Positions 23,905-32,184 of a stretch of DNA of 43,289 nucleotides are shown one piece after another (the first letter of the stretch is position 1; every line of letters begins with the position of its first letter). The position numbers and the translations under genes were made by a program. The notes under the pieces are model-generated. The model was not told the DNA's origin, made no database searches, and worked only from the letters and a program-made list of their open reading frames with translations. This DNA is from Desulfobacteraceae bacterium (lineage in GTDB: Bacteria > Desulfobacterota > Desulfobacteria > Desulfobacterales > Desulfosarcinaceae): positions 1-43,289 of the forward strand of contig JABDIN010000055.1 in assembly GCA_013003715.1 (NCBI GenBank), in the 5' to 3' direction.

Positions 23905-24106
23905 GCCTAAATTTGTGAAGCCGGGGAGTTTATATTGGAATGAAAAATTATCCAGGGTGCGGGTCAACGGAAAAACAGCCCGGTACCTGGATTATTTAAC
24001 CCTTGATGATCTGAACTTTTAAAGGCATCATATTTCGCGTAACGCTTCTCCTTTTTTTGAGTCTATACGATTACACCATAACCCATACTTCCAGGGTCAC
24101 GCATAC

Positions 24107-24502
24107 ATGAAATCATACCGCCTTGTCATCGCCCATGAAAACGAGATGTTGTACCGGAGTATCCGGCGGATGTTGGGTCAGTTGCCGGGCACTGTCATCG
24201 TCGGCCACACCATGCACCTTTCCCAACTTCCGGAACTTATCAAAACCGAAACACCGGATGGTGTTGTGGTGGGATTTTTCAGTTCCAATCATTGTGCCGG
24301 CCGGATCATCGATACCCTTCGGCAAATGTCGCCGGAGTTGAAAATTGTCGTTTTGTTTAACGACGCAACGGAGATGGATGCCGCATTCCAGGCCGGTGCC
24401 GATGCCTATCTGTTGCATCAGGATTTAAACATCGAATTGTTTTCCGCCATTAAAATCACCCAGTCCGGCACCCGGTATATCTCCAGTCAAATCCAGAGCT
24501 GA
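24107..24502 (+). CDS. Stand-alone receiver-like protein lacking the phospho-acceptor aspartate
   Basis: A 131-residue single-domain protein with the layout of a NarL-type receiver: RLVIAHENEMLYRSIRRML at the N-terminus, TPDGVVVGFF at strand 3, LKIVVLFND at strand 4 and AGADAYLLHQDL at strand 5. The acceptor Asp at the end of strand 3 is Gly, one of the two Asp of the acidic pair is replaced (HE), and the Lys of the usual YLLKD is His. It therefore cannot be phosphorylated in the normal way and is a pseudo-receiver. No DNA-binding domain follows. It may bind a partner or ligand. It is monocistronic and convergent with the pab genes. No clear ribosome site precedes the ATG. Confidence 0.75.
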   Translation: MKSYRLVIAHENEMLYRSIRRMLGQLPGTVIVGHTMHLSQLPELIKTETPDGVVVGFFSSNHCAGRIIDTLRQMSPELKIVVLFNDATEMDAAFQAGADAYLLHQDLNIELFSAIKITQSGTRYISSQIQS

Positions 24503-24536
24503 TTTGCTTTTTTTTGATGACGCCCTGTCCTTCAAC

Positions 24537-24550
24537 CCGGTTTTAACCGG
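24537..24550. terminator. Short palindrome between convergent genes
   Basis: CCGGTTTTAACCGG in the 116-bp gap between the pseudo-receiver and the pabBC stop codons. It could form a small hairpin in either transcript, but no T-run follows, so a terminator role is weakly supported. Confidence 0.25.
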
Positions 24551-24618
24551 CCGGGAAGGCTTTCGGAAATGGGTTTCTGTGGAGGTGTGATGTCCATCGC
24601 GATCCCGGGAGGCCTCCG

Positions 24619-26877
24619 TCATTGAGGGAAAACCAGTGGATCCAGAGGTGTTGGTATGGATTGGCTGGATTTCAGGCGGCGGCCGTCCACGCTCAACACC
24701 GGCACGACGCCCATAAGTGAGTTGGTGACCAGTACCAGATCCGCCCGGAACATGTCGTCCGGCGTCAGGGCTTCGGTGCTAATCGTATAACCGCCGCGGG
24801 CCAGCAGACGGCAGGCGGTGTCGGCGGTGACACCCGGCAGTACACAAGCCGATTTCGGCCTTATGATCCGGTTGCCGGAGATCAGAAGCAGGTTCGCGGT
24901 ATTGGTTTCCGATACGGTACGGTCCGGATTCAGGATGATCGCCTCATCGTAACCATGGTGGTCCGCCCATTGCCCGGCCTGATGATAATATAAATAATTC
25001 AAAGTTTTATGGCCGGCCAATGGGGTTTGCCGGCGTTCCGGATAACAGCCGGTGTCCAAGCCGGCTTTTTGTAGTCCGGACAAGCGGTGAATATACGGTC
25101 CTGCGGTGACAACCAGGGTGTGGCGGGTCTGTGAATCTGTCGGATTGCCGGCCGTGGCCAGGAGTTTGACCTTTGCCAGGCGGTTCTCCAGCCGGTTCTC
25201 GGTCAACACCTGCGATATGATGTGTTCCCAGGTGAGGTCCGGGGGCGGTGATGAGAACAATGTCTCCCAGGACCTGTTGAACCGGGCGAGATGCCCGAGC
25301 AATAACCGGCACAACCCTTTTTCCGCCCTAATGGTTTCAAACAGACCAAAGCCATACAGCAATCCCTGGTCGTTCACGGGCACAACGGCAGCGGATTCAT
25401 CCACCATTCGTCCGTTCCACCACACGCGGGTGGTCCGGGGTTCGCGCCGGTCGTTTTTACTGAAAACCTGCATCAGGGAACGGCCTTTGTGCAAGGTTTC
25501 AGCGAACTCATCCGCCGGGTCCGAGTCAAAGACAATACCACCACCCACTGAAAAGATAATCCTGCCGTCGACCACGGTGGCGGTCCGGATGGCAATGGAA
25601 AAATCCATGGTGTCGTGAAAGCCGAGGTATCCGATGGAACCGGTATAGATATGCCGGCGATGGGGTTCGAGTTCGTCAATGATTTCCATGGCGCGGATTT
25701 TAGGACATCCGGTTATGGAACCGCCCGGAAACGTGGCCTGAATCAAGTCTAATGCGTCATGCACCGGTGACAGGGTGCCGCTGATTATCGATACCGAATG
25801 CCAGACATTCTCATATGCCTCGATCTGCCGGTGGGCGTCGACGTGAACCGAGCCGCCCACGCACACCTTGCCGATATCGTTCCGGAGCAGATCCACAATC
25901 ATGGACAGTTCCGCATCATCTTTTTCACTATTGATCAGTGACGTGCGCAGGCGTTTGTCCTCCTCCGGTTTGTTGCCGCGCGGGCGTGTGCCTTTGATCG
26001 GACGGGTCTCCACCAGATCTCCTTTTCTCATCACAAAGCGTTCCGGGGATGAAGAGATGATCTGATGATCGCCGGCATTGACAAAGGCGAAAAACGGGGC
26101 GGGGTTGATCCGGTACAGAGATTGAAAAAAAGCGTAGCTGCTGCCGGAAAACGCTGCCTCGAACCGTTGTGAGAGATTGACCTGGTAAACATCGCCGGCC
26201 GCGATATACTCCCTGATGCGGCTTACAGCCTGCAGGTAATCCTCACGGTTGAAATTCGACTGCAAACGGGTATCGCCGCTGAAGGTTTCTGCAATACCGG
26301 CACCGGCAGGATCGAGACTTTCCTTGAACGACTCCGCCGCATGGATGGCACTGGAACGACCATCCGTCCCATGGATTGGGATGAACAAGCGACTGATCCC
26401 TTCTGATTTATCATGAACGACCATGAGGCGTGGCAGATAAAAACAAACCTGCGGCAAATGGAGATCGTCCACACTCGTGCGCGGCAGGTTTTCCAGCTGA
26501 TCTTTGAAATCGTATGATATATAGCCCAATATCCCGGCATTGAGGGGCATGGCCGGCACCGGCGGCGTGGTGTGGAAATGGCGGATGAGCATCCGGAGGA
26601 CGTCCATCGAATTGCCCTTGTAACAGGTGGTGGTGTCGTCAATCGTCAGTTGGACATGTAGTCCCCGGCATTTTACGGAAAGCCGGGGATCAATGCCCAT
26701 CACATGATATCGGGCGCAATCAAGATTGCCCCCGCTCATCAACACCACCGTGCCTTCCCGGGTAGCAAATGGTGCGGCGATATCCTCAACACCGGCGTTC
26801 AGTTCTATCTTTTCAGTGTATATCTCTGAGATCGGCGGTATTTTTTCGATGAATGCCTGGATTTCAATTGGTGCCAT
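24619..26877 (-). CDS. pabBC: Fused aminodeoxychorismate synthase component I and 4-amino-4-deoxychorismate lyase (PabB-PabC)
   Basis: A 752-residue cytosolic fusion covering two steps from chorismate to p-aminobenzoate for folate. Residues about 1-460 are PabB: SPERF, ETRPIKGTRPRG (the Lys in PIKGT marks PabB; anthranilate synthase has Ala there), SEKDDAELSMIVDLLRNDIG and GSITGCPKIRAMEIIDEL. Residues about 480-752 are a class IV PLP lyase: VNDQGLLYGFGLFETIR, the PLP Lys in HKTLNYLYY, EAIILNPDRTVSETNTANLL and LPGVTADTACRLL. AGGATC precedes the ATG. It lies 29 bp after the amidotransferase gene on the same strand, giving a complete p-aminobenzoate pathway in two genes. Confidence 0.93.
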   Translation of the reverse strand: MAPIEIQAFIEKIPPISEIYTEKIELNAGVEDIAAPFATREGTVVLMSGGNLDCARYHVMGIDPRLSVKCRGLHVQLTIDDTTTCYKGNSMDVLRMLIRHFHTTPPVPAMPLNAGILGYISYDFKDQLENLPRTSVDDLHLPQVCFYLPRLMVVHDKSEGISRLFIPIHGTDGRSSAIHAAESFKESLDPAGAGIAETFSGDTRLQSNFNREDYLQAVSRIREYIAAGDVYQVNLSQRFEAAFSGSSYAFFQSLYRINPAPFFAFVNAGDHQIISSSPERFVMRKGDLVETRPIKGTRPRGNKPEEDKRLRTSLINSEKDDAELSMIVDLLRNDIGKVCVGGSVHVDAHRQIEAYENVWHSVSIISGTLSPVHDALDLIQATFPGGSITGCPKIRAMEIIDELEPHRRHIYTGSIGYLGFHDTMDFSIAIRTATVVDGRIIFSVGGGIVFDSDPADEFAETLHKGRSLMQVFSKNDRREPRTTRVWWNGRMVDESAAVVPVNDQGLLYGFGLFETIRAEKGLCRLLLGHLARFNRSWETLFSSPPPDLTWEHIISQVLTENRLENRLAKVKLLATAGNPTDSQTRHTLVVTAGPYIHRLSGLQKAGLDTGCYPERRQTPLAGHKTLNYLYYHQAGQWADHHGYDEAIILNPDRTVSETNTANLLLISGNRIIRPKSACVLPGVTADTACRLLARGGYTISTEALTPDDMFRADLVLVTNSLMGVVPVLSVDGRRLKSSQSIPTPLDPLVFPQ

Positions 26878-26906
26878 TGCAGGATCCTGTATGCCTGTGT
26901 GCGGAT

Positions 26907-27590
26907 TTAATAGCAGGCCTCTGCCGTCTCCGCTGATGCCCCTGCCGGTACACCGCGGAAAACCGGTTTATTGATCCCCGTATGTTCGTCCCGTTTCACA
27001 CTTGCCAGTGGGCCGAGGGCCAGAAAGTTCTCCACCAGATCATACCCGGACTCGGTCAAAAAACTTTCCGGATGAAATTGTACACCATGCAGCGGACAGG
27101 TCCGGTGGGAGATGCCCATGGGAATTCCGTCTTCGGTTTGAGCGGTGATGCCGAGCGGATTGCCGCCGTCGGTTGTTGTGGATAATTCGCAGAGCAGTGA
27201 GTGGTATCGTGCGGCGGTAAACGGTGACCGGATATTGCTGAATAAATGCTCCCCCGTGTGGAAGACCATGCTGGTTTTACCATGAACCGGATTTTCGGAA
27301 CGGACGGTCTTTCCGCCAAAGACCTCATTGATGCATTGCATTCCGAGGCATACACCTAAAATGGGAATTTTTTTATAATGCGCCTTGATCAACGGTTTGG
27401 ATATGCCGGCGCGGGCCGGATTCCGGGGGCCCGGGCTGATCAGAATATAATCGGGGTTGTACGCTTTTGCCTGATCCAGGGTGATCTTGTCATTTCGATG
27501 GACATGAATGTCCAGATCGTATTGCATGAACATCTGGACAATATTATAGGTAAAGGAATCATAATTATCTATTACCAGCAATCGAGCCAC
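26907..27590 (-). CDS. pabA: Aminodeoxychorismate/anthranilate synthase glutamine amidotransferase (PabA/TrpG)
   Basis: A 227-residue class I glutamine amidotransferase that supplies ammonia to PabB. It shows LLVIDNYDSFTYNIVQMF, ISPGPRNPARAG, the nucleophile Cys in LGVCLGMQ and the His-Glu pair in GVQFHPESFLT. The start is GTG 27590, five bases after GGAGG; an in-frame ATG at 27662 lies before a terminator-like hairpin and adds non-family residues. The C-terminus is about 35 residues longer than usual (about 190) with no recognised motif. Since the next gene is PabB-PabC, the folate role is likely, but such subunits often also serve TrpE, and no trp genes are visible here. Confidence 0.9.
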   Translation of the reverse strand: MARLLVIDNYDSFTYNIVQMFMQYDLDIHVHRNDKITLDQAKAYNPDYILISPGPRNPARAGISKPLIKAHYKKIPILGVCLGMQCINEVFGGKTVRSENPVHGKTSMVFHTGEHLFSNIRSPFTAARYHSLLCELSTTTDGGNPLGITAQTEDGIPMGISHRTCPLHGVQFHPESFLTESGYDLVENFLALGPLASVKRDEHTGINKPVFRGVPAGASAETAEACY

Positions 27591-27600
27591 GCGATCCTCC

Positions 27601-27634
27601 AAAAAAAAAGCCGCCCAAAGCGAGTCTGGGTGGC
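27601..27634 (-). terminator. Hairpin with nine U just before the pabA ribosome site (possible attenuator)
   Basis: On the minus strand GCCACCCA pairs with TGGGCGGC (seven of eight pairs, nine-base loop), followed at once by nine T and then GGAGG of pabA. It is built like an intrinsic terminator placed in the leader of the pab operon. Upstream, CCTGCC (27671-27666) can pair with GGCAGG (27651-27646), and GGCCATGGCC (27632-27641) overlaps the terminator arm, so alternative folds exist. Read-through control is an inference. Confidence 0.6.
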
Positions 27635-27804
27635 CATGGCCTGAACCTGCCGGGTGATACATGGGGGCAGGTGTTCATAACTCATCACATACATGTTTCT
27701 ATGGTAAAACCGTTTAATAGACGTCATCGTTTGTCCGGTCAAGGCATTTTTATGAAAAGTGTTGCCTAAAAAGTATTACCTTTTTTACTCAAAGACCTTG
27801 TCAT

Positions 27805-27858
27805 ATCAGATCAATCGCGGTCGGGTGGCCATCAATTGCTCACCGCGCTGATTTTTTT
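27805..27858 (+). terminator. Terminator-like stem-loop with T7 in the pabA-HTH intergenic region
   Basis: CGCGGT (27816-27821) pairs with ACCGCG (27842-27847), extended on the outside by ATCAG (27805-27809) with CTGAT (27848-27852), and then TTTTTT. No plus-strand gene ends nearby, so it could end a small RNA or a leader of the downstream HTH gene. The rest of the 27591-28152 gap holds the pab leader, no clear promoter and a possible small ORF at 27998. Confidence 0.4.
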
Positions 27859-27997
27859 ATCGATCTTCGGGGGAGTTGATGGTTTTTAAAATTTTCATAA
27901 TATACGGAATGTTACATATTTGACTGGCCGATGAGATTAATCCTCGGCGAGTATGACTCACTAATTTTGTTAAATAAAAAAGGAGATTTTTAAAATT

Positions 27998-28093
27998 GTG
28001 CATACGGTTTGCATTGTGGTGGGCGGAAAGGACGTTCAGTTCGTATCATTGCTCCGGCGGATAAGTGCGCAGAATCAGACATACGCCACATGA
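27998..28093 (+). CDS. Possible 31-residue small ORF with a strong ribosome site
   Basis: AAAAAAGGAGA at about 27976-27986 is a strong Shine-Dalgarno sequence with no annotated gene after it. GTG 27998 gives VHTVCIVVGGKDVQFVSLL and ends at TGA 28091-28093, 59 bases before the HTH gene. The spacing (about 12) is long. It may be a small or leader peptide, or the broken start of a lost gene. There is no homology I recognise. Confidence 0.25.
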   Translation: MHTVCIVVGGKDVQFVSLLRRISAQNQTYAT

Positions 28094-28152
28094 CCTATTT
28101 ATTCGCCAGGTAATAAAATGCTAATTGCGGAAAAATAGAAGTGGAGTGAAGT

Positions 28153-28626
28153 ATGTCGGACAAAAAAACAGATTCGGAACAGGAGCCGGAAATTCTGGTT
28201 GTTAAAAAAAAGAAACCGGAAGATTCAGCGAATAGACAAATCATGGACACCCAGGAAACAGCGCAGCAAAAAAAGGATATCGAGCATAGGATATCCACCA
28301 CGGTATGCACCAAAATTCTCCCGCTGATCGACTCGCTCCGGCAAATCGGCATCACTGAGGAAAAATGCGATTTGCTTGAGAAGGCCGCCCAGGAGCTGAC
28401 AACCCTCACCGGCGCCGACACCGGGGGCCTTCGTTCCATCTATCTGACGGATGTCGAGTCGCGCATCGGCACTTTGCTGGATAGCGGATATACAACCGAA
28501 GAGATCGCCCGCACGCTGAATATACAGGTGGAAACGGTTTACCGGCATCAGCAAAGTTTAAAGAAAAAACTCAACCTGATCGATCGCCGGACACCGGATG
28601 AAGAATTCCGGTTCACCTTGAACTAG
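28153..28626 (+). CDS. LuxR-type helix-turn-helix protein with helical N-terminal region
   Basis: A 157-residue protein. The first 40 residues are highly charged and probably disordered (VVKKKKPED). The middle (about 40-105) is helical and unrecognised. The C-terminus (about 105-150) is a LuxR/GerE-type HTH: ESRIGTLLDSGYTTEEIARTLN, then the recognition helix VETVYRHQQSLKKKLNL. No receiver or other sensor domain is attached. It lies 393 bp upstream of the FHA-MoxR-vWA cluster on the same strand and may regulate it, although a distinct promoter-like sequence in between argues for separate transcription. GTGGAGTGAAGT precedes the ATG. Confidence 0.78.
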   Translation: MSDKKTDSEQEPEILVVKKKKPEDSANRQIMDTQETAQQKKDIEHRISTTVCTKILPLIDSLRQIGITEEKCDLLEKAAQELTTLTGADTGGLRSIYLTDVESRIGTLLDSGYTTEEIARTLNIQVETVYRHQQSLKKKLNLIDRRTPDEEFRFTLN

Positions 28627-28642
28627 ATGAAGCTTCAAGGTG
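28614..28642 (+). terminator. Stem-loop spanning the stop codon of the HTH gene
   Basis: CACCTTGAA (28614-28622) pairs perfectly with TTCAAGGTG (28634-28642); the loop contains the TAG stop. No T-run follows. It may protect the 3' end or slow termination. It is placed at a gene end, which is why I list it. Confidence 0.35.
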
Positions 28643-28941
28643 GTCGGGGCGTTTGATATCAAGAATTGCGGAGGGCGGCGCAATGTAAAAAACACCCGTC
28701 ACATCAACGCGTTGCCGCATTTTTAAATCCGCATTTACGCCGGATGAACCGGACCTGTTTTTCACAACACACTCCCCGATACATCAGGTAATATTCACCT
28801 GCCTGTTCCCCCCTGCCGGCCAGGCCAGCGCAGTGGAGATGCCCATCGTCGCGACCCGTCAGGAGAATCCGTTGATCACCGCCTGTAGTTTTAAGCAGAT
28901 AAGCGATTTATCTTCATTACCTTGTGTGCTATGTTTGGTTG

Positions 28942-28992
28942 TATAATTTATAAAACCCGGGATAGATCTTAAGGTAACAGGGGTATATACCC
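28942..28992 (+). promoter_or_regulatory. Candidate promoter and palindrome before the FHA-MoxR-vWA cluster
   Basis: A consensus -10 TATAAT (28942-28947) without a convincing -35 lies 71 bases before the FHA gene. Downstream, GGGTATATACCC (28981-28992) is a perfect 12-base palindrome 26 bases before the ATG, in the presumed 5' leader; it could be an operator or a short hairpin. Otherwise the 28627-29018 gap shows nothing I can name. Confidence 0.35.
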
Positions 28993-29018
28993 ATAAAATC
29001 AAAGAGGGAGCGGGACCG

Positions 29019-29399
29019 ATGGCCATCATCGTTTTATTGCATGACGATCTGTCGATAAAAAAAATTTCCATTGAATCACCTGAACTGACAATCGGGCGAC
29101 ATCCGGAAAGTGACATTTACGTGGATGACGCCGTGGTCAGCAAGACACACGCGGTGATTGAAACGGTTGAACCGGCGGATGGTAAAGGTGAACCCGAATA
29201 CTATATCTCTGACCTGGACAGCACCAACCACACCTATGTAAACGGCGACAAAATCGATCGGATAATGCTCGCGCATAACGATTTGATACGGATCGGACGG
29301 CATAGTTTGAAATTCATCGACGAGTCCATACACCAGGACGACAAGACCTTGAAATTGCGCAAGAGCTGGATTCCGGGGGTCTATTACACCAAAGAGTAA
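29019..29399 (+). CDS. FHA-domain protein
   Basis: A 126-residue protein that is almost entirely one forkhead-associated domain, which binds phosphothreonine peptides. Key residues are in LTIGRHPESDIYVDD (the GR and S), VVSKTHAVIE (S-x-x-H) and STNHTYVNGDKI (the N-G turn), followed by DLIRIGRHSLKFI. No kinase domain or membrane segment is attached. It opens the MoxR/vWA cluster, so Ser/Thr phosphorylation may control assembly of that system; no kinase or phosphatase gene is in the window. GAGGGAG lies about nine bases before the ATG. Confidence 0.9.
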   Translation: MAIIVLLHDDLSIKKISIESPELTIGRHPESDIYVDDAVVSKTHAVIETVEPADGKGEPEYYISDLDSTNHTYVNGDKIDRIMLAHNDLIRIGRHSLKFIDESIHQDDKTLKLRKSWIPGVYYTKE

Positions 29400-29475
29400 A
29401 CGGAGTATAGGGCAACCGCATGCGAGGTCTACATTTCGTATGGGTTTTATGTGACCATTTGAGTGGGGTTTGCCG

Positions 29476-31428
29476 ATGCATCGAATCCGAAAAAAATGCC
29501 CACCGGTATTGTGGTTGCTGTTCTGCACCATGGTCACCACACCCGCGGTCTGGGCAAACACGTCAGTGGTCATGGAAAGCCATCTGGGTTTTGATGGCCG
29601 CTTTCACCTGAACGCCTTCACACCGGTGACGATGACGCTCGAAAACCGCGGCGGTTCCGTTTCCGGCACTCTCGAGGTGGTGATGACATCCGGCTCGGAG
29701 TATTACCGGAACCTTTATGATACGCACTACACAAGAGACGTCACCCTGCCGTCGAACTCAAAAAAGCAGTATGCGTTCACCGTTCGGCTCGATGCCTTTT
29801 CCCGCCCGCTGATCATTCGTTTCAAACAATCGGACCGCATTATTGTTTCCGAATCCATTGAGTTGAGGGACCGGTATACGAACTCGGAGTTGGTAATCGG
29901 TGTGGGCCGGAATTTGCGGCCACTGGTGTTTGATAATTTCCCCGGGTCCGCGATTCCGGTTACGGTTCGCCCGCCATATTTGCCGGAGACCCATATTGGG
30001 TATCAAGGCGTAGCCATGATGGTGATGGACGCCGGAATCATGGAACAGCTTACGGATAAGCAGTTTGATGCGGTTTACCAATGGGTGGAGACCGGTGGAT
30101 ATGTCATCATTGCCGGTGGATTGAATCTGGGTTTCTATTCCCATCCCCGGCTTCGCCGATTGCTTCCACTGACGGTTCACGGCGTAGAGAAGATGTCATC
30201 GGTTCAATCCATGCAATCTTTTTGCGGCAGCCCATTGTCCGGAACCGAGCCGTTTCTGGTGCTCGATACCACGGTGGCCGGGGGCAACACCATGGTGGTT
30301 GAAAACGGGATTCCGATCGTCACCCAAAAAAAGCTGGGCGCCGGACAGCTTGTTTTTCTATCCTTTGACTATCGCAACGCACCATTCAGCGATTGGGCCG
30401 GCCGGTTGAACTTCTGGGAAAAAATCCTTGGAATGGGGAAAATGACGGCCGGTGTAAAAGACGATGATATCGTTTCTGAAATTACCGGTGCCATCGCTCA
30501 GGCCGCCGGGTTCAGGTTTCCCGGCGGCATACGGATTTTCTTCTTGGGAGCGGGTTATATTGTCGCCTGTTTTTTGGCCTTCAGAAATATGGAATCCCGA
30601 AACCGACCGCTCATCAGGCAATTTGCCCTTGTGGTCGGTATTATATTGAGTTTTACCGCCGGTACGGTCATCTTTTTTCATCATGCACAATACACTGCGC
30701 GTCTGCGATACAACGGGTTTTTACGTCTGCGGTTGGCAAATCATCAGATGATCGCAGAAGGGAATTATACCATCGGTTTATACGGCATCCGGGATACGGA
30801 TATCGGATTCTCCCTGGATCAGGCCTTCCATCCCATACTCCCGGTATCGGTGAAAAATACCGAAGACACGGCAAGGGATTGGCTGCAACTCCATGAGAGC
30901 CGGCAGGGGCAACAGGTCAAAACCCGGCTGAGTGCCTGGTCCCAAAAGCACTACACCATGCAGACATGGATGCAATTCCCATTGAGCGGCCGTGTGATTA
31001 AGGAAGGTACGGACATTATTCTCGAGGTGAACAACTCGTCCGCGCACCGGATAGTGGATTGCCGGCTTTATTATGCCGGCCGGTTGATCTCCATTGGAGA
31101 TCTCGAGCCGGACATGCACCACCGGCAGCGGATAACCGGAGAAACCCTGCACGGCATCGAACCGCTCTCCTCTCCTTATTTGGAATTGATCCCCCGGTCA
31201 TACCCACCGGGGTTTCCCACGGCATTGTTCGAGTCGGTTCATTTGAATGTCGGTGAAGATCTGATCACGTCGGTACACGGTCGTTTTCAAGCGGATGCTG
31301 ACCATGCCTGCCTGCTCGGTTGGATCGGATCCGAAGTCGTACCCTTGACGCGGTCCGGCAACCCCGTACCCGGCGAAAGCCTTACATTTATTGAATTAAG
31401 CATGTCATTGAGATCGGAAATCGGGTGA
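29476..31428 (+). CDS. Exported membrane protein with amidotransferase-like domain, MoxR/vWA cluster
   Basis: A 650-residue protein. A signal peptide covers about 1-27 (RIRKKCPPVLWLLF, cut near VWA|N). A beta-rich domain follows (FTPVTMTLENRGG). Then comes a Rossmann/class I amidotransferase-like region (about 140-320) with GVAMMVMDAGIMEQLTDKQ, VETGGYVIIAGG and LVFLSFDYRNAPFSDW, but no catalytic Cys seen. Two membrane segments lie near 350-372 and 380-402, and the C-terminal 240 residues are a second soluble domain. Proteins of this build accompany MoxR/vWA operons; the function is unknown. I start at ATG 29476; a TTG two codons earlier is also possible. It ends three bases before the next gene. 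Confidence 0.75.
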   Translation: MHRIRKKCPPVLWLLFCTMVTTPAVWANTSVVMESHLGFDGRFHLNAFTPVTMTLENRGGSVSGTLEVVMTSGSEYYRNLYDTHYTRDVTLPSNSKKQYAFTVRLDAFSRPLIIRFKQSDRIIVSESIELRDRYTNSELVIGVGRNLRPLVFDNFPGSAIPVTVRPPYLPETHIGYQGVAMMVMDAGIMEQLTDKQFDAVYQWVETGGYVIIAGGLNLGFYSHPRLRRLLPLTVHGVEKMSSVQSMQSFCGSPLSGTEPFLVLDTTVAGGNTMVVENGIPIVTQKKLGAGQLVFLSFDYRNAPFSDWAGRLNFWEKILGMGKMTAGVKDDDIVSEITGAIAQAAGFRFPGGIRIFFLGAGYIVACFLAFRNMESRNRPLIRQFALVVGIILSFTAGTVIFFHHAQYTARLRYNGFLRLRLANHQMIAEGNYTIGLYGIRDTDIGFSLDQAFHPILPVSVKNTEDTARDWLQLHESRQGQQVKTRLSAWSQKHYTMQTWMQFPLSGRVIKEGTDIILEVNNSSAHRIVDCRLYYAGRLISIGDLEPDMHHRQRITGETLHGIEPLSSPYLELIPRSYPPGFPTALFESVHLNVGEDLITSVHGRFQADADHACLLGWIGSEVVPLTRSGNPVPGESLTFIELSMSLRSEIG

Positions 31429-31431
31429 CGA

Positions 31432-32184
31432 ATGCGTTTTGATTATTTTACAAAGGATTCCCCGCACCACATGGCGCCGTTTTTTTCCGCCGCCATGGTA
31501 AAGACGTATTCAACGGGCATATGGCTTCTCGGATCGGCCCTGCTGCTGTTCTGGCCGAAAAAGGCATTTTACATGTATTTTCAGGCCGGTCTGGAGCCGT
31601 TTTGCACGAACGGCATATATATGGCCGGTATCGTGATCCTGTCGTATATCAGCCTGCGTTGCGGCCGCGGCGAACTGGCCCAGGAGACAGATCCCATCAC
31701 CCGGAAAAAAAACAAATACCACGAAGAAAACCGGAATTTTTTCTCATATGGTCTGATCTCATTCATCACCCACACCCTTTTTTTCATTTGCCTGTTGTTG
31801 CCGTTTTTCCTCATCGCGGGACTCCTGTCCGGTTCACCGATCCGGATTTTCTTCCAATACCTGGTCATACTTTTCTTAACGGCCCTGTTATTTCGTCTGA
31901 TAGGTTTTTCCGCTTACATGTGTGTCCGCAGATGGCATAACTTCTCCTACATTCTCACCCGGTTTATTTTCGTCTTCTTTTTTTTCCTCAGCAGTAAATT
32001 CATTTCTGCTTTGAATCCGCTGTCGATGGTACATTCATTGTCCAAAACCAGTCGAATGCCGGATGCATTCACGATTACGGGGAGCCCGGGTTATCTTACT
32101 ATTGTTGCCGGACTGAGTGTGTCGCTCATCCTGCTGAACGCTTTCATCGTCAGCTATAAAACAAACAAATGGATCAGGAGATGA
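31432..32184 (+). CDS. Polytopic membrane protein of unknown function
   Basis: A 250-residue inner-membrane protein with about six hydrophobic segments: TGIWLLGSALLLFWP, GIYMAGIVILSYISL, FFICLLLPFFLIAGLL, FFQYLVILFLTALLF, FIFVFFFFLSS and YLTIVAGLSVSLILLN. A basic loop (RKKNKYHEENR) lies after the second. It resembles the membrane-spanning part of ABC-2 or Yip1-like proteins, but I cannot name the family. It is tightly packed between the exported protein and the next membrane protein (16-base overlap), so it is almost certainly a part of the same complex. Confidence 0.75.
   Translation: MRFDYFTKDSPHHMAPFFSAAMVKTYSTGIWLLGSALLLFWPKKAFYMYFQAGLEPFCTNGIYMAGIVILSYISLRCGRGELAQETDPITRKKNKYHEENRNFFSYGLISFITHTLFFICLLLPFFLIAGLLSGSPIRIFFQYLVILFLTALLFRLIGFSAYMCVRRWHNFSYILTRFIFVFFFFLSSKFISALNPLSMVHSLSKTSRMPDAFTITGSPGYLTIVAGLSVSLILLNAFIVSYKTNKWIRR

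Follow-up and report, generated by a model that had tools for sequence, protein, structure and literature searches.

A conserved leader RNA with two exclusive folds precedes pABA synthesis genes or candidate pABA importers

The closest described counterpart of the RNA element reported here is the HMP-PP riboswitch (thiS motif), in which a tiny aptamer lies within a terminator and transcription is permitted when the product of the other pathway branch is abundant (PMC6478431; this and the following comparisons refer to excerpts of the cited papers). The pab element resembles it in combining a very small putative aptamer with an overlapping intrinsic terminator, in a P1 helix that would replace the terminator in the ON state while the terminator is the predominant fold, and in serving one branch of a two-branch cofactor pathway (PMC6478431). 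The geometry differs: P2 of the thiS motif is the terminator tip, whereas P2 of the pab element competes with the terminator base, and the HMP-PP riboswitch is reported from two phyla including Firmicutes, whereas the pab element has no Rfam match (PMC6478431). The Tetrahydrofolate-II riboswitch (folE motif) likewise belongs to the folate pathway and occupies the 5' leader of a biosynthesis gene, but unlike the pab element it precedes folE-type genes, and the text of PMC6800512 does not mention folP. The ZTP riboswitch (pfl motif) is also tied to folate shortage; it is found on numerous folate and purine genes, whereas the pab element is found on pab genes, transporter genes and one other operon (PMC7266159). 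On the side of uptake, the sodium/solute symporter ThiV offers a parallel—an SSS vitamin-precursor importer behind a putative TPP riboswitch in an auxotroph—although both the vitamin and the RNA are different (PMC11452348). The terms pabA and aminobenzo do not occur in the texts of PMC8632094, PMC11109978, PMC7266159 and PMC6800512, nor do pabA and chorismate in that of PMC2864571. RNA control of pABA supply was found neither in Rfam nor in the main texts of the open-access literature searched, in line with the earlier note on this DNA, whose author knew of no pab attenuator of such form; pABA uptake or a pABA transporter is likewise not mentioned among the literature matches listed. We know of no established bacterial pABA importer.

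The window, by which we mean the whole stretch of 43,289 nucleotides analysed here, encodes PabA and a PabBC fusion on its minus strand (Table 1). The former matches TIGR00566 (trpG/pabA) at 187 bits against a cut-off of 121, the latter TIGR00553 (pabB) at 348 bits against 328, and Pfam assigns GATase, Chorismate_bind and Aminotran_4 to the two proteins. Ahead of pabA, a G+C-rich stem, GCCACCCA/TGGGCGGC, in which 27634-27627 pairs with 27617-27610 on the minus strand around a single A.C mismatch (27631/27613), is followed by a U-run, the form of an intrinsic terminator. The terminator-like hairpin with U9 of the earlier note is real and lies on the minus strand, and its distance from GGAGG, given there as one base, is off by one, the U-run abutting GGAGG directly. 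The remark that the hairpin has no upstream gene to terminate also stands: no likely co-directional gene was seen upstream of the window leader, and the nearest plausible gene, 28153-28626, is divergent from pabA (a 114-aa minus-strand ORF at 28095-28439 is antisense to it). The putative promoter elements are separated by 17 bases and predict a leader of ~115 nt. Searched against Rfam 15, which includes THF, ZTP, HMP-PP and T-box, the window and 40 related loci gave no match on the element and two tRNAs elsewhere; three matches of the window leader fell far below cut-off. Known RNA families were rejected on this ground, the element having no Rfam match at the gathering cut-off.

Table 1. Positions of the leader elements and genes at the pab locus, numbered along the window
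Feature	Position	Strand	Basis
Putative -35, TTGACC	27737..27742	-	consensus match only, by eye; absent from pattern scan
Putative -10, TATTAA	27714..27719	-	consensus match only, by eye; absent from pattern scan
P1 5' strand, UGAGUU	27679..27684	-	alignment; helix covaries
Conserved AUG of internal loop; start-codon role unsupported	27676..27678	-	alignment
Inserted hairpin CCTGCC...GGCAGG inside internal loop	27646..27671	-	1/27 family leaders
P2 5' strand, GGC	27639..27641	-	nearly invariant, little covariation
P2 3' strand, GCC, common to terminator 5' arm	27632..27634	-	alignment
Conserved ACCCA, internal loop 3' side, common to terminator 5' arm	27627..27631	-	alignment
P1 3' strand, GACUCG, top of terminator hairpin	27621..27626	-	covariation, sequence reading
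Intrinsic terminator hairpin	27610..27634	-	pattern scan, covariation, sequence reading
U9 tract	27601..27609	-	sequence reading
GGAGG, Shine-Dalgarno of pabA	27596..27600	-	sequence reading
pabA (glutamine amidotransferase of aminodeoxychorismate synthase), GTG start at 27590	26907..27590	-	family models
pabBC fusion (chorismate-binding + class IV aminotransferase)	24619..26877	-	family models

Taken as a single sequence, the window hairpin does not exceed chance, and it is conservation in relatives that lifts it above. The folding energy of 27540-27700 (plus strand folded) has z = 0.03, with 95 of 200 shuffles equally good, and the pattern scan counted 13 terminator-like sites in 24000-32000 where 9.4 (sd 3.3) were expected. 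The window's own element is moreover a divergent one, carrying both the loop insertion and the A.C mismatch in the terminator. Loci for comparison were chosen by protein, not by motif: a PabA search in 30 genomes of the family located a PabA-type locus in 27, the remaining three having trpG-type loci only (L032-L034, left out of the 27). The leader element is present at 27 of 27 of these loci, each of which reads (G/A)(A/G)GTTATG, then CACCCAG after 21-51 nt, then a terminator-like stem; GAGUUAUG, AGGC and GCCACCCAG are near-invariant in the family alignment. The attenuator-like pabA leader proposed in the earlier note is thus kept at all 27 family loci, with an alternative fold that excludes the terminator, and the alignment of relatives that the note had called for finds the hairpin conserved and covarying rather than lacking conservation, the outcome named there as a refutation. 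By eye, an extra hairpin of variable sequence lies just upstream of the element in L007, L012, L013, L017, L025 and L030, and a clear one is absent from the window leader.

At E <= 0.01, the covariance model built from the family leaders, R1, matched in 151 of the order's 291 genomes, in seven of them twice. By hand count, 21 of the 132 PabA-positive genomes of the order have no R1 match, and some of these may be misses because the filters were strict. The R2 model gave one match each in 75 of 395 genomes of the phylum at E <= 0.001; two of these genomes, G436 and G610, were left out of the examination of loci. The best E-values are 1e-20 for the order and 9e-17 for the phylum, and some of the weakest matches near the cut-offs are probably false. 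A sequence-pattern scan of named genomes returned at least 119 stretches, and the matches listed include, besides Desulfobacterota, records labelled Spirochaetes/Spirochaetota (one of them a 3.5-Mb chromosome), Dehalococcoidia and WOR-3. Identical leaders occur in two genome bins (L177 and L179, in G036 and G090), possibly through binning contamination.

The conserved element is a small hairpin composed of P1 (GAGUU/GACUC type), an asymmetric and conserved internal loop (AUG(N)YA / AYCCM) and P2 (GGC/GCC). Because this hairpin and the terminator share one strand, only one of them can form; the element's 5' strand takes no part in the terminator stem and is conserved all the same, which calls for a second fold. 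Most transporter loci of the order have the variant AGGUUAUGUCAGGC...GCCAUCCCGACCU, which shows GAGUU/GACUC to be one helix, and P1 covaries between GAGUU/GACUC, AGGUU/GACCU and GGGUC/GACCC. Both alternative folds of the earlier note can now be placed: the palindrome GGCCATGGCC (27641-27632, minus strand) survives as the antiterminator P2 overlapping the terminator 5' arm, whereas the CCTGCC/GGCAGG hairpin (arms at 27671-27666 and 27651-27646, minus strand) is an insertion found, among 27 family leaders, in the window genome only. Our first reading, in which GAGUU and the terminator loop formed an H-type pseudoknot, was set aside for the nested P1/P2 hairpin, which fits better and is preferred because transporter-type variants often have small terminator loops. 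A pseudoknot is possible for leaders with large ones. In L163 and L164 the terminator is altered; judged by eye, its 3' arm, GGGTGCTTTGCC, seems to pair with the 5' strand of P2 as well.

Covariation was counted in two author-selected subsets of loci, A2 (63 sequences) and A3 (100 sequences), with shuffles that ignore relatedness. In A2, 57 cells of P1+P2 changed on both sides against 27.8 after shuffling, and 36 cells of the terminator against 16.8; in A3, which was aligned to the P1+P2 model, the counts were 87 against 25.7 and 102 against 33.3, and in each of the four comparisons 0 of 500 shuffles were as high. All six P1 pairs have changes on both sides in A3, and P2 yields little covariation because it is nearly invariant. 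Sliding the partners by 1-3 columns in A3 lowers the pairing of P1+P2 from 95.9% to at most 48.5% and that of the terminator from 93.4% to at most 54.9%. Counted instead as pairs changed on both sides, three comparisons do not clearly exceed the shuffles: 53 of 500 shuffles were as high for the family alignment, 134 for P1+P2 in A2 and 175 for the terminator in A3. A pattern fixing GTTATG, AGGY and GCCAYCCMGACY supplied 53 of the 100 A3 rows; the 27 family loci are free of this bias, and in their 26 distinct rows the outermost P1 pair is UA 12 times, AU nine times and unpaired five times. We regard it as near certain that the element is a structured and conserved attenuator whose two folds are mutually exclusive, and that it is tied to pABA acquisition.

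Folding with alternative pairings, another check put forward in the earlier note, reproduces both states: leaders cut before the terminator 3' arm are predicted to adopt the antiterminator in 83 of 100 cases, and full leaders the terminator in 96 of 100 and the antiterminator in none. The window leader is likewise predicted to fold both ways, its inserted hairpin making a three-way junction. The terminator is predicted to be the stronger structure in 100 of 100 sequences, with median energies of -20.3 kcal/mol for the terminator and -7.6 kcal/mol for the P1/P2 hairpin; termination is thus the predicted default, and the hairpin would need to be held in place, which points to an ON switch.

The leader is probably a cis-acting transcription antitermination switch, and most likely a metabolite-sensing riboswitch that controls pABA acquisition. 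As in riboswitches, a conserved covarying structure of the 5' leader is joined to a mutually exclusive expression platform, here a predicted one, and from the energies the ON type is the most likely. After the promoter, the leader would first fold into P1, the asymmetric internal loop and P2; the 3' strands of P2 and of the loop also make up the terminator 5' arm, and a standing hairpin would block the terminator and let pabA-pabBC be transcribed. Unaided, the hairpin would be weaker than the terminator and transcription would end by default; binding of a ligand in the conserved loop would switch the genes on. The exchange of folds would take place during transcription, the ligand would report pABA shortage, and the target of this RNA in other genomes would be a pABA importer rather than the synthesis genes. 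The layout resembling that of the HMP-PP riboswitch suggests, by analogy, that the ligand could be the pterin pyrophosphate waiting for pABA.

The same parts could also work in the opposite sense, with pABA or folate favouring termination, for example through a pseudoknot between P1 and the terminator loop; such a variant is compatible with the riboswitch part of the preferred reading. For biosynthesis and uptake genes, control by the end product is usually of the OFF kind, and the family alignment leaves room for P1 to pair with the loop of the terminator while the stem stays closed; however, the predicted loops measure 3-5 nt in 65 of 100 sequences, too small for the 5-6 bp of P1, and the predicted energies make termination the default without ligand, so that we give the OFF variant a minor but appreciable share of the probability. 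BglG/LicT-type proteins block terminators by binding an RNA antiterminator, and their general layout is alike: there too a short hairpin, its asymmetric loop conserved, overlaps the terminator. That an RNA-binding regulator and not a metabolite binds the P1/loop/P2 hairpin and blocks the terminator nevertheless seems rather unlikely: no recurrent regulator was noticed among the neighbouring ORFs, viewed mostly by eye, and since the RNA occurs in records with Spirochaetes/Spirochaetota, Dehalococcoidia and WOR-3 labels, such a regulator would have to be widely shared.

Two further readings fare worse. A plain, unregulated terminator, serving to insulate pabA or to end a small RNA from upstream, would explain a hairpin that by pattern is a good intrinsic terminator, in a region where such sites are about as many as chance predicts, but it would not conserve a 5' strand outside the stem and an overlapping covarying helix, and we consider it very improbable. 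The earlier note had further suggested a short leader peptide from the in-frame ATG at 27662, and the near-invariant AUG of the motif might likewise start one in a ribosome-dependent attenuator. The former ATG sits within the insertion absent from the 26 other family leaders. From the conserved AUG, a stop follows within three codons in 45 of 127 leaders and none within 600 nt in 20, lengths vary widely, and a Shine-Dalgarno-like sequence precedes it in two. With no conserved short ORF from the motif AUG in the 127 leaders, the leader-peptide attenuator was rejected as scarcely credible.

The genes behind the element share a subject with the preferred reading, a riboswitch of pABA acquisition. 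Within 250 nt downstream, 89 of the 116 R1 loci examined have a pabA-like gene. Among the other 27, an SSS symporter follows the element at 18, a LivK-type binding protein at four and pabBC at one, and four loci have no such gene (L187 and L194, probably false; L139, without pab or transporter gene nearby; L179, at a contig end). The pattern-scan stretches listed divide into pabA 71, SSS 30, LivK-type 7, pabBC 1 and unclassified 10, the last comprising four with a hydrolase operon, two contig ends and four chance-like matches without terminator (L235, L290, L309, L314). Together with 24 R2 loci (n=143, partly the same places) they amount to pabA 93, SSS 31, LivK-type 8, pabBC 1 and unclassified 10, and 40 further R2 loci added pabA 18, SSS 16, LivK-type 4, hydrolase operon 1 and a probable false match (L400). 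At 21 pabA loci with downstream room the next ORFs fit pabB, pabBC or pabC, and no pterin-branch gene was recognised after pabA, both judged by size or eye. The symporter belongs to PF00474, its best NCBIfam models, sss and panF, being both below cut-off; SSS symporters behind the motif are mostly single genes (L169, L172-L178, L181, L182, L184, L185, L188-L193), and at L209 and L211 a LivK-type binding protein and permease-like genes form a cluster behind it. A recurring operon at L247, L294, L320, L333 and L397 encodes an isochorismatase-like hydrolase, a thioredoxin-reductase-like flavoprotein and an RlmN-like radical-SAM protein (family models covered only the L320 proteins). No pabB match at E <= 1e-30 was returned for the genomes of L247, L294, L320 and L333, and the operon is possibly a pABA route of its own kind.

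The earlier note needs one more correction: the element is not specific to pabA, and where PabA is missing it is found ahead of transporter genes. At E <= 1e-60, a cut set after the scores were seen, PabA is found in 132 of the order's 291 genomes and in 0 of its 22 transporter-type genomes, a hypergeometric P of 8e-7 if phylogeny is ignored; G061 has a 202-bit PabA match just below this cut, and G095/G166, with the motif before pabA, lie just above it at 209 bits. The PabBC fusion is also found in none of the 22, the best match reaching 285 bits against at least 792 in six of seven pabA-type controls (in G117, a 76-bit match covers the PabBC aminotransferase part alone), and pabB exceeds its cut-off in 0 of 16 transporter-type genomes tested against five of six controls. 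The pABA-using enzyme dihydropteroate synthase exceeds its cut-off in 20 of the 22, and the two genomes that miss it are 79-81% complete. The exchange is visible within genus g16, where the motif stands before pabA in G039 and before a symporter in G208, a genome lacking PabA at E <= 1e-60. Among 12 genomes reached via named loci (8 SSS, 4 hydrolase operon) none has pabB over cut-off, an absence that is weak because the cut-off is insensitive outside the phylum (4 of 14 controls over); pabB matches below cut-off occur in three of the eight SSS genomes. Dihydropteroate synthase is over cut-off in 11 of 13 genomes, these 12 and G619, and partial in two.

The targets thus form one metabolic theme, pABA synthesis or, in genomes without PabA, a transporter whose substrate would be pABA, and the element marks how the cell obtains this compound. 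The SSS symporters and LivK-type clusters behind the motif in such genomes are candidate pABA importers. Since the same element precedes pABA-making genes or likely importers in many bacteria, it looks like an undescribed folate-precursor switch. An RNA that sits on synthesis genes or, where these are missing, on a transporter provides a marker of pABA acquisition across anaerobes, and it points to two transporter groups and one odd operon as candidates. The most far-reaching version would be a new riboswitch class of several phyla, turned ON at pABA shortage by 6-hydroxymethyl-dihydropterin pyrophosphate or another folate-shortage signal and exposing both the missing pABA importers, an SSS symporter clade and a LivK-type ABC system, and, in the hydrolase, flavoprotein and radical-SAM operon of genomes where pabB was not detected, a third pABA route; as a whole we find this version unlikely. 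Were the ligand indeed the pterin partner, the logic of the HMP-PP switch would be repeated in a second vitamin.

One more observation concerns the internal loop. Of 83 distinct pabA leaders, 67 have a C..A loop (ACCCA) and 63 a 4-nt spacer; of 31 SSS leaders, 23 have a U..C loop (AUCCC) and 27 a 2-nt spacer; LivK-type leaders have mixed variants. The loop variants track the target gene, which may reflect lineage or a difference of ligand.
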